Of a stretch of 64,000 bases of DNA, positions 10,361 to 39,046 are shown piece after piece. Made by a program: the position numbers and the translations under genes. This stretch comes from Pratylenchus scribneri (Eukaryota > Nematoda > Chromadorea > Rhabditida > Pratylenchidae), in NCBI GenBank assembly GCA_030063045.1, contig JAQSEB010000042.1, positions 682,001 through 746,000 of the forward strand. Direction: 5' to 3'. The notes below the pieces were generated by a model, which had not been told where the DNA came from, did no database searches, and saw only the letters and a program-made list of their open reading frames with translations. Position 1 is the first letter of the stretch. Each line of letters starts with the position of its first letter.

Positions 10361-12308
10361 ATGGAAAATAAGCAAAAGCCAGCAGCAGAAAGTGAAGATT
10401 CAATTTGCAGTGATTTGGAACAATTGAATTTGGCCGATTTTGCATTGGGCGAAGTTGAAGCCAAGTCAAGTGATGGAACAGCTGGGGAAATTGAAAAGAT
10501 GAAGGTTAATATTTTAAAAATAATTTTAAAATAAATTTATTTATCAGGCTGAATTGGCGGAATTGATGAAGAAGGAAATGGAGGCCATGAAATTGGCCAG
10601 CAAAGCGGACTCAAACGAAATTGCCAACAAATTTGATGGGAAAATTGATCGTTTGGAGAAATATGTAATTTTAATTTTTACTGAAAATTTAAATACTAAA
10701 CCTGAAGATACTTATAGTTTAATTCGAATTGGTATCCAAAATTAAATAATGATTTTTAATCATCTCGAAAAATCTAAAAAATTATTTTTCAATGTCAGAT
10801 GAATGATCAATTTCAAAAATTGGCCCAAGAGAATCAGAAGCAAGGGAAAAAAGAAGACAAATCGCTCGAAGGAAAATTGGCAAAATCGGAACAGGCAATG
10901 GGCAAATTGAAGAAAGAAATTGACCGCAAGAATGAAAAATTGGCAGAGAAGGATAAGGAAATTTTTGCATTGGAAGTGGAAATTGTTGGGCTTAAAAGGG
11001 AAATTGGCCAAAATGATCAAAAGATGGAGAAGAAGGCTGAGGAAATTTGTGCACTGAAAGAAGAAATTGGCCAAAAAGACCAGAAATTGGCAGAACAGGA
11101 AGCAAAAATCGTCGCATTGGAAAATGAAATTGATGGGCAAAAAGCAAAAATTGGCCAAAAAGACCAGAAATTGGCAGAACAGGAAGCAAAAATCGTCGCA
11201 TTGGAAAATGAAATTGCTAAACAAAAGAAGGTGGTTGATCAACAATCAACTATTGGGAATGCCAAAATTGAACGATTGGTTGGTTAATTTTTTACATTAA
11301 ATTATTTTAATTTTGCAAAAGCATTAATCCGGATAAAAGCTTTAATGGCAATAAAATGGAATAAACAAAAAAAATCACAACATTTTATTTCAAAGCTAAA
11401 GCTATTGCCCTTTATTTTCCAAAAAAATTTCTAATTTGAAAAATTTTTTGAATTGTATTGTCCCACATAAATATTTTTACCCAAAAATTTTATACTCAAA
11501 CATCAATCTTTTCATCAAAGCTTCCACCTCTGCCGTCGTCAAAGATTCCACCTCCAATAAAGCGTCCAACTCAACCAAAGCTCCCACCTCCTCCCAGCCG
11601 GTGGACTTCTTATCTCGCTGCCATCAATTCTTCCAATGCAAAACCAACAAAAACACCCACTGTTGGTGGTGATGCCAACAAAACGGGACCGAAGAAGGAT
11701 TCAAAGTAAGGGTGGAAAAAAATTAAAATTTACAAAATATTATTTTTTCAGTTTGTATGGATATTGTGCCGGTTGTGAGCAAGGATTTTTGTGAGTTAAA
11801 ATTTCCATTTTTTAAATGCAAAAATTTAATTTTTGATAATTTTAAATTATTATCTTCCATTAATTGATTCTTCTTAATTATTTTGTTAGTGAAGATAATT
11901 CATGGTAAAAGATAAAATATTGATGCTTAATGGATATTAGCAATTAAAATTAAAAAATATGATGAAAAGTCGAAAAATAAATTAAATATTGTATTTTCTC
12001 TTTCACAGGCGAACTGATTGGGTCCATCAAGTTGGTGATCTTCTCTATCATGCTGTCTGCTTCAAATGCGAATTCGATAATTGTCGCCGTCAATTGATCG
12101 ATTTCAATGAATTTTTGCTGGATTACATTATTCCACATAAAAATCGCGCACTTGGCAAGATGGTTCCCCAAATTCTTTGCCCAAATCACTACAATTCTTC
12201 GGCATCAAAAATGCCAATTACTGAGGGTGACAAAAATAAAAATTATTTTTATTAAAATTATTATTTTTAGCTCGTCTAATTCTTGTCAGTGAATGCTATG
12301 TTAAATGA
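10361..12308 (+). CDS. Mosaic family gene A: shared N-terminus, coiled coil, LIM domain (about 406 aa)
   Basis: Exons 10361-10504, 10548-10664, 10799-11278, 11521-11705, 11752-11790, 12009-12226, 12271-12308 form one frame. Exon 1 encodes the family N-terminus (SICSDLEQLNLADFALGE). Exons 2-3 encode a long Lys/Glu coiled coil with repeated IGQKDQKLAEQEAKI units. A Ser/Pro/Thr linker (NSSNAKPTKTPT) leads to a LIM domain split over exons 5-6: CAGCEQGF, RTDWVHQVGDLLYHAVC, FKCEFDNC, and ILCPNHY. The third Cys pair is CX4C instead of CX2C, so zinc binding may be altered. The TDW..(R/H)Q and EF spacing resembles the second LIM domain of LIM-4/LHX6/LHX8 proteins. No leader, so an intracellular scaffold-type role is likely. 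Gene B is its tandem paralogue. Confidence 0.75.
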
Positions 12309-13190
12309 AGAGAAGAATGATAATGAAAGAAGATTGAAGGGCAAATTATATTTGTTTGGTGCCCTAATTTGAAATATACATCGAACATTTTCACTTTTAC
12401 ACTTTGACTTAATTATCAATACATTTTTGCTATAAATTCTTCAAAATATTCTGATCTTTCTTTCTGGAAATGATAAATAAAGATTTACCTTCATTTAAAT
12501 ATATTTAATTTTAATTAATCCATTTTCATTTTGGATTATTAACTAATTAAATTTTTCGAACCCTCATGATTTAACAATTTAAAAAATGCAATTCAATCAA
12601 AAAAATGTAAAAAAATTCTAAGGTATTAATAAATTAAATACCAACTAAAGAAGCAAATAAAAATCAAAATTTCAGCTCTTTTCTTTCAAAGTTAATTTGG
12701 TCGCTAGCCAATTTTTTCCATCCAGGAAAACATATTGAAATTAGGCAAAATAAGCTGGTAGGCCAAAATTCAATGAAGAAAAAATTTTAAAGTAATTTTT
12801 TATGTTCACTAGCCTTTTTTCCTTTATTTTTTATTATGAGTGCAAAATGCAAACGAGTTCTGCTGAAAAAATGTGGTTTAAGACATTTTTCCAAACCGGT
12901 TTTGGGCTATTTACAAGGATTAAACTAAAAACAAATGATTTTTTCGGATTTAGCATGTTGGATAATCTTTAAAATCATTCAAAACACTAGTTTTTAAATG
13001 ATAAAACTAGTAAAAACATTGTTTATTGAAATGTTTTATTTTACGACGTTTTTAATTGAAATTCGGAAATATGCTGCTTTTTATGTTAATTATAAAAGGT
13101 TTAAAAATGTTTTGAATGAGAGATGAAGATGAATGATGATGATGATGATTGTGCAGAAACAAATGAACACACAAAAATAGCCTATTATTC
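12309..13190. other. Intergenic spacer; right part is the duplicated flank with an empty insertion site
   Basis: No gene seen. 12850-13125 matches the flank of gene A and holds the unoccupied GAATGAGA site at 13114-13121. Confidence 0.5.
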
Positions 13191-13199
13191 ACCCCTATC

Positions 13200-13390
13200 C
13201 GTTATATTGCTGCTGGCCATTGAGCATTGACCAATCGATTTTTTTTATCACGAACTCAATTCAATCCCCAACTCAATTTCAATTTTCATATTTCCATTCC
13301 CATTGCCAGTATTTTTTCCAATCTGTCACGGCCATTCACATTCCTCCATTTTTAAAATATTTATCGGCCAATAAAAAATAAACCATTAAA
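13200..13390 (+). promoter_or_regulatory. Conserved upstream block of LIM gene B
   Basis: Carries TATATTGCTGCTGGCCATTG, then ACCAATCGATTTTTTTTATC, and later TTATCGGCCAATAAAAAATA, matching the blocks before gene A at a similar distance (about 310 and 150 bp before the ATG). Confidence 0.45.
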
Positions 13391-36782: not shown

Positions 36783-37524
36783 ATATTTTCATCATTTGAT
36801 AAAAATTTAATGGATTTTAAGATAACCGATTTTTACCTTCTCCGTAGTCGATTGCTGATCAGCTGCCTTCTTTTGCTTCAATTCCACAATTTCATCTTCC
36901 AATGCGCCGATTTTTGCATCCTGTTCTGCCAATTTCACGTCTTTTTGGCCAATTTCCTCTCCCAATGCACAAATTTCCTCATCCTTTTCTGCCAATTTTT
37001 CATTCTTTTAGTCAATTTTTTCTTCCAATAATTCAATTTTTGCTTCCTTCTCTCCCAATTTCCGCTTCAAATATGAATTTTCCTCTTTCAAATTGCAAAT
37101 TTTGTCATAATTTTCTTCTAATTCTTCATCCTTTTGGTCAATTTTCTCTTCCAAGTTGGCCATTGCTTCTTCCATTTTTTTCAATTTCTCTTCGAGTGAT
37201 TCGTCTTCTTTCTTTTGTTGAGTTGGAAGATGCATTGCTTCATCCCATTTAGCCCTAAAAAAGACAATTTTTATTATTTAATATCATTTTTCAATTCAAT
37301 TTACATTCTGGCCAGTTCATTTTTCTCAATTTCGAGCAAAGATTGGAGTTCCTGGAAATTAGATTATTTTAGGGAAATAATATCATATATTTTATACTTG
37401 TAAAGATTTTGAAAATTGGCTTCTAAAAACTAAAAATTTTGAAAATATTTTCTGAAGAATTTAAACATTAACCTAAAAATTAAGAAAAATATTTTTCGAC
37501 AGTTCTAATTTTGTTTCTGTTTTT

Positions 37525-37750
37525 GGTACTTGTGTACTTTGTGTGCACACTTTTTGTCAAAAGTGAATGGTCCCCCCTATGGTCTGTCATATTTCGGGTT
37601 AGGGTCAGTAAGGGTTGGGTTAGGGATAGGATGGGATTAGAGTCATTTTTCGGGTATCCTAAACCCAAGCCCTCACCCAAACCCTAAAACACAAAGGAGG
37701 GACCAAGCAGCAAGCACTTTTCAAAAATGTGCACACAAAGTACACGTACC
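37525..37750. mobile_element. MITE-like element in an intron of gene F
   Basis: Left GGTACTTGTGTACTTTGTGT and GCACAC are mirrored by right TGTGCACACAAAGTACACGT. Inner arms AAAAGTGAATGGTCCCCCC and GGGACCAAGCAGCAAGCACTTTT also face each other, and GGTTAGGG-like tracts fill the middle. Borders approximate. Confidence 0.55.
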
Positions 37751-39046
37751 CTGTTTTTTAATTGAAATTATCCAAAAAAATATACCTCTGGTTTGAGATT
37801 TGTTGCGCGTTGAAGAGCGGCTTCAGCAGAGCTCTGATGCTTTTTGGGCATCATCGGAATTGCATGCTTGAACATTCCACTCAATCGTTTCGACATTTCC
37901 TTGTACTTTACCATTTCCATTAGTACAGTTTCATATGGCTGGAAAAAATAATTTTATTTTAAATTTCAATAAAATCAATTAAAAAAATTATTTCCAATTT
38001 TTTCAGAAGGAAAATTTTTATTTAAATTTTCAAAAAATATATTTTAAAAAATAGATGGAATAACCGAACAAAAATGGCATGAATTTGTTTACTTAAATTT
38101 GCTAAAAATTATTTCTTCTAAAATATTTTGTTCAAAAAGATCAATGATAGTTTTTTAATTCTAATTCAATTTTTGGCCACTTCTCTATTGATGAAATTTT
38201 ACATTTTCTTTTGATTAAATTGAACTTATTTCATTTACCTTCAATTGATGGCCTCCTTCTTCTTTTAGCATTTCTAATTGGCTAATTTCATTTTGTTTTT
38301 CCACCTCCTTGATTTCTTCAATCAAATTTTCTTGATCATCTTTTGCATCTTTCTTCCCTTGCTTCTGATACACTTGTGCCAATTTTTGAAATTGATCATT
38401 CACCTGAAAATGAAAAATAATTCTTTTATTTTATCGAATTTTTTTAATAATTATGATTTAATTAATGGTTTTTAGCATTAAATTGAAGAATAAGAAATTT
38501 AGTAGAAAAATAATTTCAGAAAATTTAATTTTTTTTCATAAGAAAGCCGGTAAATTTGATAAAGGCTTAAGGGAAAATATTGGATGGAGCCATTTTCGGA
38601 TGCCGAAATGAATTTTTATAGGATTATTGTTGAATTTCGGTTTTGAATTTCGAACTTCATTAATCATTACATATTGTATTTTAAATTTTTCATTAAAATA
38701 AATAATTTACATATTTCTCCAACTGAACAATTTTTCCATCCAATTTGTTGACAATTTCATCCGAATTCATTTTACTTGCCAATTTCATGGCCTCAATTTC
38801 CTTCTTCAATTTCACCAATTCAGACTGAAATTAATATTTTTATTTTAAAATTATTTTCTAAATATTCACCTTCATCTTTTCAATTTCTCCAACGGTTCCA
38901 TCATTCTCGGTAGCCACAAATTCGCCGAATGCAAAATTCGATTTGGCTTCAAAGTCCTCATCAAGTCCAAAATCGGCCAAATTTAATTGGTCCAAATCGC
39001 TGCAAATCGACGATCCTTCACTTTCTGCCGAGTGTTGATTTTCCAT

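Follow-up and report, generated by a model that had tools for sequence, protein, structure and literature searches.

Exons of regulators, probably captured within the animal's own genome, behind a shared first exon: a family of predicted mosaic genes in Pratylenchus scribneri

How could neighbouring predicted genes that start with the same exon come to carry quite different regulatory domains? The question is posed by a cluster at positions 10361 to 39046 of a 64,000-nucleotide stretch of the nematode Pratylenchus scribneri (assembly GCA_030063045.1, contig JAQSEB010000042.1, positions 682,001 to 746,000 of the forward strand; hereafter the window), where five predicted genes, A, B, C, D and F, have in common an exon 1 with the core SDLEQLNLADF. 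A sequence-only reading of the window had proposed that all five combine this exon with coiled coils, and that pieces of other regulators were repeatedly captured onto the common scaffold. All five first exons were found, and the idea of repeated capture is now strongly supported: other domains stand behind exon 1 elsewhere in the genome, and the KIX, GATA and EB1 segments are 75-85% identical at the DNA level to parent genes of the same genome, intron sequence included. Since the introns match too, these three segments are DNA captures; convergence or low-complexity similarity is ruled out by the matching intron sequence, and retrocopying by the retained introns. Copying presumably went from parent to family. 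The reading that we prefer is of a family of 50 loci to which stretches of other genes of this genome were probably added by exon capture at the DNA level, the predicted products being expected to compete with the source regulators or to re-target them; for this reading as a whole we put the chances just short of even.

The segments on which it leans most are the following:

28086-29302, plus strand: captured MED15 5' end, 81.5% identical over 470 columns and 85% over 122 columns to the MED15 gene on contig C19 (G000:C19)
28086-28140 (end of a fused exon), 28192-28237 and 28279-28324, plus strand: coding parts of the captured MED15
28374-28457 and 29207-29302 (start of a fused exon), plus strand: its coding parts, continued
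21475-22198, plus strand: captured GATA exon pair with intron edges, 75-85% identical to GATA loci of the same genome
35284-35562, minus strand: captured EB1 C-terminal exon with intron flanks, matching EB1 loci
35166-36844, minus strand: block with the EB1 exon, missing from a related F copy on contig C11 (L077)

The MED15 match of D falls into two stretches, of which 28086-28552 (the 470 columns) follows the parent from its ATG through three whole introns into the fourth, while 29186-29302 (the 122 columns) corresponds to the next MED15 exon. The intron of D at 28458-29206 also holds other sequence. Both ends of the MED15 segment join coiled-coil sequence within an exon, in frame. Another KIX copy, L075 (G000:C228), has a 5' junction unlike that of D: there the upstream coiled-coil exon leads into exon 2 of MED15, and the part from the first MED15 exon is unrecognisable. 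We do not claim the Pro/Gln/Met-rich exons of D as the middle region of MED15, the similarity being 29-30% and confined to compositionally biased sequence. As to GATA, the first exon of the pair in C matches four loci at 75-85% (L063, L065, L066 and L069), three of which also match in the second exon, and the intron position is the same. The EB1 segment of F matches three EB1 loci, that on C252 (L055/L067) with 84.7% identity in 281 columns, and those on C185 and C160 (L056, L057) with 84.8% in 263. Because these three loci are 95.8-96.2% identical to one another, the EB1 capture, or the divergence of the F copy, would predate their split. One of the six EB1 matches in the genome lies within the exon-1 family.

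The LIM exons match a type of LIM-homeodomain (LIM-HD) locus that is present four times, each copy being followed by a homeobox at a distance of about 1 kb; identity is 46-51% at the amino acid level, and the LIM capture appears to be older than those of KIX, GATA and EB1. No parent was identified for the homeodomains, the nearest other loci being 50-58% identical over part of the module.

For genes A to D each exon was modelled in turn, while F was reconstructed from its open frames, with the following result:

10361-12255, plus strand: gene A, GT-AG model, LIM at 2e-5
10361-10504, plus strand: exon 1 of A, with GT donor
10548-10664, plus strand: exon 2 of A
10799-11278, or to a stop ending at 11287, plus strand: coiled-coil exon 3 of A
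11521-11705, plus strand: possible exon 4 of A
11752-11790 and 12009-12255, plus strand: altered LIM exons of A
13517-15649, plus strand: gene B, GT-AG model, LIM at 1e-7
13517-13660, plus strand: exon 1 of B, with GT donor
13702-13815, plus strand: exon 2 of B
13935-14795, plus strand: long coiled-coil exon of B
14971-15047, plus strand: linker of B
15097-15135 and 15382-15649, plus strand: LIM of B in two exons, with every zinc ligand
17539-22360, plus strand: gene C, GT-AG model
17539-17679, plus strand: exon 1 of C, with GT donor
17723-18010, 18788-19132 and 19629-19967, plus strand: coiled-coil and weak homeodomain-like exons of C
21546-21646 and 22126-22297, plus strand: captured GATA exon pair of C
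22343-22360, plus strand: short final exon of C
24648-31450, plus strand: gene D
24648-24776, plus strand: exon 1 of D, with GT donor, coiled coil next
within 25851-26198, plus strand: homeodomain 1 of D
26261-27613, plus strand: Pro/Gln/Met-rich exons of D
28086-29302, plus strand: captured MED15 KIX of D
within 29907-30254, plus strand: homeodomain 2 of D
30309-30595, plus strand: additional coiled coil of D
33810-39046, minus strand: gene F, open frames, broken by an in-frame stop
38870-39046, minus strand: exon 1 of F, by frame reading
about 37786-37938, minus strand: Groucho-Q-like exon of F
about 35330-35485, minus strand: EB1 exon of F
about 34831-34869 and 34034-33810, minus strand: LIM exons of F

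All internal junctions in the models of A (LIM version), B, C and D have a GT donor and an AG acceptor and keep the frame open. Family exons are mostly phase 0 on both sides, the exceptions being the LIM and GATA exons, those inside the KIX segment and the last exon of D; the GATA cassette of C is entered and left in phase 0. From the splice signals, the frames and the conserved order we infer that exon 1 is spliced to the captured exons. The protein predicted from B has 500 amino acids and that from D about 1190, with two homeodomains and KIX; the D model follows the MED15 exon structure and replaces a first one in which KIX was mis-split.

Pfam profile searches of the predicted proteins gave significant matches, above the curated cut-offs, to nearly all the domains that had been assigned from sequence alone: LIM in A, B and F (1.6e-9 in F), GATA in C (1.5e-13, profile positions 1-34 of 36), KIX and two homeodomains in D, and EB1 in F (1e-6). 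What stood less well was the homeodomain-like part of C, for which the match is weak (E 0.31, under the cut-off) and which reads WLKNSE where both homeodomain stretches of D (2.5e-15) have the recognition helix WFQNRR; the GATA part of the same claim held. The KIX domain of D, which we take to resemble that of MDT-15, matched Med15_N at 4.3e-10 already in the first model and at 1.1e-21 in the corrected exon structure (profile positions 2-70 of 72); unlike Med15_N, KIX_2 (PF16987) has no match in the genome. The GATA finger has the form CX2C-X17-CX2C and is without its basic tail, a one-base shift replacing the parental MRKETVQTR. All eight zinc ligands (CX2C..HX2CX2CX2C..CX2D) are present in the LIM of B and F. 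The best PDB matches of the B LIM are LIM-HD fusions (Lhx4, the first, at E 2e-9, ISL and Lhx3), with LMO2 and LMO4 also among the matches, and the LIM concerned is probably the second LIM of the best chains. No homeodomain was seen behind the LIM among the Pfam families listed for B (25 of 27) or F, in contrast to the LIM-HD parent loci, which have one. Gene F further holds an exon like the Groucho/TLE Q domain, absent from the sequence-only reading: TLE_N matches it at 7.7e-6 and 26.7 bits, under the 32-bit cut-off, a TLE1 chain in the PDB matches it at E 0.003, and 23 of 45 residues are identical to the Groucho exon of the same genome. No WD40 match was obtained in the Pfam scan of the F pieces. 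Homeodomain transcription factors have a free basic N-terminal arm; for a homeodomain exon of D, AlphaFold2 (AF2) predicts one helix over residues 2-74 that runs into the homeodomain, with low confidence at 74-81, and for the 56-residue homeodomain piece three helices at a mean confidence score (pLDDT) of 69; a fold search with this piece had homeodomains as its top two matches, both insignificant. The roles of homeodomain and GATA residues, and of the parent domains in binding partners, are background knowledge on which we draw here.

Some other features were noted in and around the cluster. Repeat-like sequence lies at 28746-29075, where an intron separates two of the captured MED15 exons (matching L070 in both orientations), at 31068-31228 (matching several other loci) and, in an F intron, at 34310-34805, with GGGGCA and CGCAGCGAAAAATT units and 85-93% identity to L061 and L070; upstream of the cluster, at 3372-3690, there are fragments of open reading frames (ORFs) like the 28.7-29.1 kb repeat (RHLRTKRSG...YGQKT). 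Small Cys-rich predicted proteins flank the cluster in opposite orientations, at 7422-8567 (plus strand), 39903-40187 and 43557-44706 (both minus strand); their pattern is CYQQ..GW.FWD.G.C ... EVRGCARxDFC...GCDC..C, and the one scanned had no Pfam match. The Rfam scan of the window gave 0 matches.

How large is the family, and what stands behind exon 1 elsewhere? One exon 1 query found 45 places in the genome at E<=0.001 and a second gave 52 rows, i.e. 50 distinct loci, at E<=0.01. The exon encodes 43-59 residues and is acidic; from a set of 32 sequences, 27 were compared (leaving out two duplicates and three stop-bearing ones), and these have 7 invariant residues and a mean column identity of 59%. 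Its constant stretch, SDLEQLNLADFALDEFEA, counts 6 acidic and 6 Leu/Phe residues and no basic one among 18. Downstream ORFs were read for 15 of the 30 exon-1 loci fetched, and at 13 of these 15 a coiled-coil ORF of the exon 2 type follows. About 55-60 bases before the ATG of A, B and similar copies, TTTTAG is followed by AAAAAGCTA; an upstream motif, TGCMCTT, was dropped as too weak (it occurs 12 times in 35 upstream sequences, with three window genes entered twice, where letter shuffles average 6). Protein-database searches returned no homologue at E<=0.001 among 7994 and 47 candidates, nematode coverage being unclear, so that they are silent on the distribution of the family; neither NCBIfam, for one exon-1+2 protein, nor a structure search with the whole exon gave a match.

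At 33 of the 50 loci exon 1 has a domain of the captured type no more than 5.5 kb downstream, on its own strand; among the 17 others, 1.5 kb of downstream sequence was retrieved for five only. Nine kinds of domain occur in this position: LIM, homeodomain, GATA, KIX, Groucho Q, EB1, SLBP, KH and DUF7516. Among 119 Pfam rows for LIM, GATA, EB1, Med15_N, TLE_N and SLBP, 19 fall behind exon 1 under the same strand and distance limits, where random placement would give about 0.07, tandem and homoeologous copies being non-independent. Homeodomains account for 146 rows in the genome, and three of the four tested, on family contigs and at matching positions only, are behind exon 1. So are 22 of the 26 LIM-exon matches, the remaining four being the LIM-HD loci, and five of the eight SLBP matches, at a distance of about 0.55 kb. 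The RNA-binding kinds are represented by SLBP on L021 (7e-14) and a STAR-type KH on L036 (6e-18; similar ORFs in L025 and L031), and DUF7516 by L016 (2.4e-10). The order exon 1, homeodomain, KIX recurs on C42, C70 and C124, and exon 1, homeodomain, GATA on C42 and C70. DUF7516-like ORFs were seen behind exon 1 in L016 (2740-2985) and L024 (2825-3040), with a LIM exon farther downstream at both, Pfam having been run on L016. At G000:C12:1959459-1969151 four copies of exon 1 form an array with an SLBP-like domain about 0.55 kb behind each, three of the four having a stop in exon 1.

Are these products selected for, or are they debris? The most serious competitor to our reading holds that duplication, together with repair or mobile elements, drops gene fragments into an unstable cluster, so that the chimeras would be mostly non-functional; we regard this as unlikely. 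Ratios of non-synonymous to synonymous change (dN/dS, NG86 method, on related copies) are near neutral for exon 8 of D (0.90 and 1.04) and exon 2 of C (1.04), repeats are scattered through the cluster, and in-frame stops occur in F and within exon 1 of three C12 copies. Three of the points in its favour weigh directly against the capture of working regulators: the in-frame TAA at 37008-37010 in the coiled-coil exon of F, the altered spacing (CEFDNC) of the A LIM, and the KIX of D, whose dN/dS is 0.42 against C70 and 0.95 against C228, with few changes. Fragment accumulation is harder to reconcile with the intact frames and splice sites of several members, with MED15 sequence being joined in frame within coding exons and with the low ratios of other modules, i.e. 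0.12 and 0.14 for the homeodomain 1 exon of D (116 codons) and, between F and C11, 0.19 for LIM and 0.24 for the Groucho exon. Values in between were obtained for the homeodomain exon of C (0.29 and 0.32) and exon 2 of D (0.38 and 0.42); exon 1 pairs of A-D range from 0.10 to 0.66. Against the parents, the ratio is 0.16 for the EB1 exon and 0.30 for KIX (against MED15). Some modules are thus under constraint after capture, and KIX is among those without such a signal.

Another possibility is that the genes encode chimeric regulators of transcription or RNA, exon 1 activating or recruiting cofactors and the captured domains giving new DNA or RNA targets; the products would then be activators, not competitors. 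The conserved, acidic, Leu/Phe-rich exon 1 would suit this role, as would the GATA finger of C and the homeodomains of D with their WFQNRR. However, the GATA tail is lost in C, and EB1, Groucho Q and KIX bind protein, not DNA, so that we hold this account to be improbable. One may also ask whether separate genes were mis-joined, the captured exons being independent genes that lie between copies of a short coiled-coil gene. Exon 3 of A can be read to a stop at 11285-11287, upstream of the LIM exons, and the exon chains are predictions from genomic sequence; yet splice phases match, MED15 is fused in frame inside coding exons, and a same-strand domain follows exon 1 at 33 of 50 loci, which leaves little room for this explanation. 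Secreted effectors that mimic regulators of the host organism, an idea that a genome of ~30% GC with several homoeologous copies, which would fit polyploid root-knot nematodes (on ploidy, PMC10844300), might encourage, are very improbable, because the acidic N-terminus (MENKQ...SDLEQLNLADF) shows no hydrophobic stretch of the signal type and the captured domains have their matches in genes of the animal itself.

Returning to capture with competition or re-targeting, we may only propose how it could work; that the family yields protein, and functional protein, is itself presumed from the gene models. The coiled coil would oligomerise the product, and the captured part would be what recognises the target: activators in the case of KIX, Groucho and its partners in that of Groucho Q, LIM cofactors in that of LIM, and EB1 with its ligands in that of EBH; GATA and homeodomains would recognise DNA, SLBP and STAR-KH RNA. 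In the window genes the rest of MED15, the Groucho WD40, the homeodomain of LIM-HD and the CH domain of EB1 are not among the Pfam families listed, so that the product would take up a partner or site but fail to give the parental output. Alternatively, it would bring exon 1 and the coiled coil to the partners of the parents. Since exon 1 is highly conserved and acidic, a shared output is likely, and the SDLEQLNLADFALDEFEA stretch might add it, perhaps by recruiting cofactors as acidic activation domains do; an activation-like segment is our first guess for exon 1. The competitor role is a reasonable proposal, and the notion of dominant competitors or mimics, voiced already from sequence alone, fits the nature of the captured parts. 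A broader version sees the acidic effector exon with its coiled coil as a capture platform that repeatedly takes up recognition modules of its own genome at the DNA level (from a GATA factor, LIM-HD, homeobox, MED15, Groucho, EB1, SLBP, a STAR RNA-binding protein and DUF7516) and so would diversify into dominant antagonists or re-wired core regulators; this we consider possible but doubtful.

Cases of exon shuffling are mostly pieced together from ancient events. This genome contains the donor genes, the captured exons together with their introns, and a related copy that lacks one insert, which opens capture to study at the DNA level. Core regulators such as MED15, Groucho and EB1 would, provided that the chimeras are made, face competitors encoded in the same genome, with a bearing on the rewiring of regulatory networks, and every pair of chimera and parental partner is a directly testable prediction.

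No description of such a family was found in the open-access literature searched, which is far from all literature, in agreement with the earlier statement that no described family combines these domains. The LIM-only (LMO) proteins, like this family, have LIM of the LIM-HD type without the homeodomain; unlike them, the family has one LIM on a coiled-coil scaffold, with LIM-HD fusions as best PDB matches. Plant nucleotide-binding leucine-rich repeat receptors (NLRs) with integrated domains (PMC9528084, PMC4246468) likewise combine a conserved architecture with unrelated extra domains in some members. No NB-ARC, NACHT or LRR was among the Pfam families listed for our scanned proteins, and the modules come from the animal's own regulators of transcription, RNA and microtubules. 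F-box genes with a captured transposase helix-turn-helix are another multicopy family that gained a foreign domain; the source there (PMC12062965) is a transposable element, whereas here it is endogenous regulators, with nine kinds of domain. A further parallel may be drawn with microProteins (PMC6003976, PMC4807768), which also have a regulator domain without the remainder of the larger protein and interfere with complex formation, the mechanism proposed here too. As in microProteins, parts of the family are akin to larger proteins encoded in the same genome, which holds for KIX (MED15), EBH (EB1), GATA, LIM and the Groucho exons. MicroProteins are small and single-domain, while this family joins modules of several unrelated parents to a constant scaffold with long coiled coils, up to three kinds of module (LIM, EB1 and Groucho Q in F) being combined in one gene.

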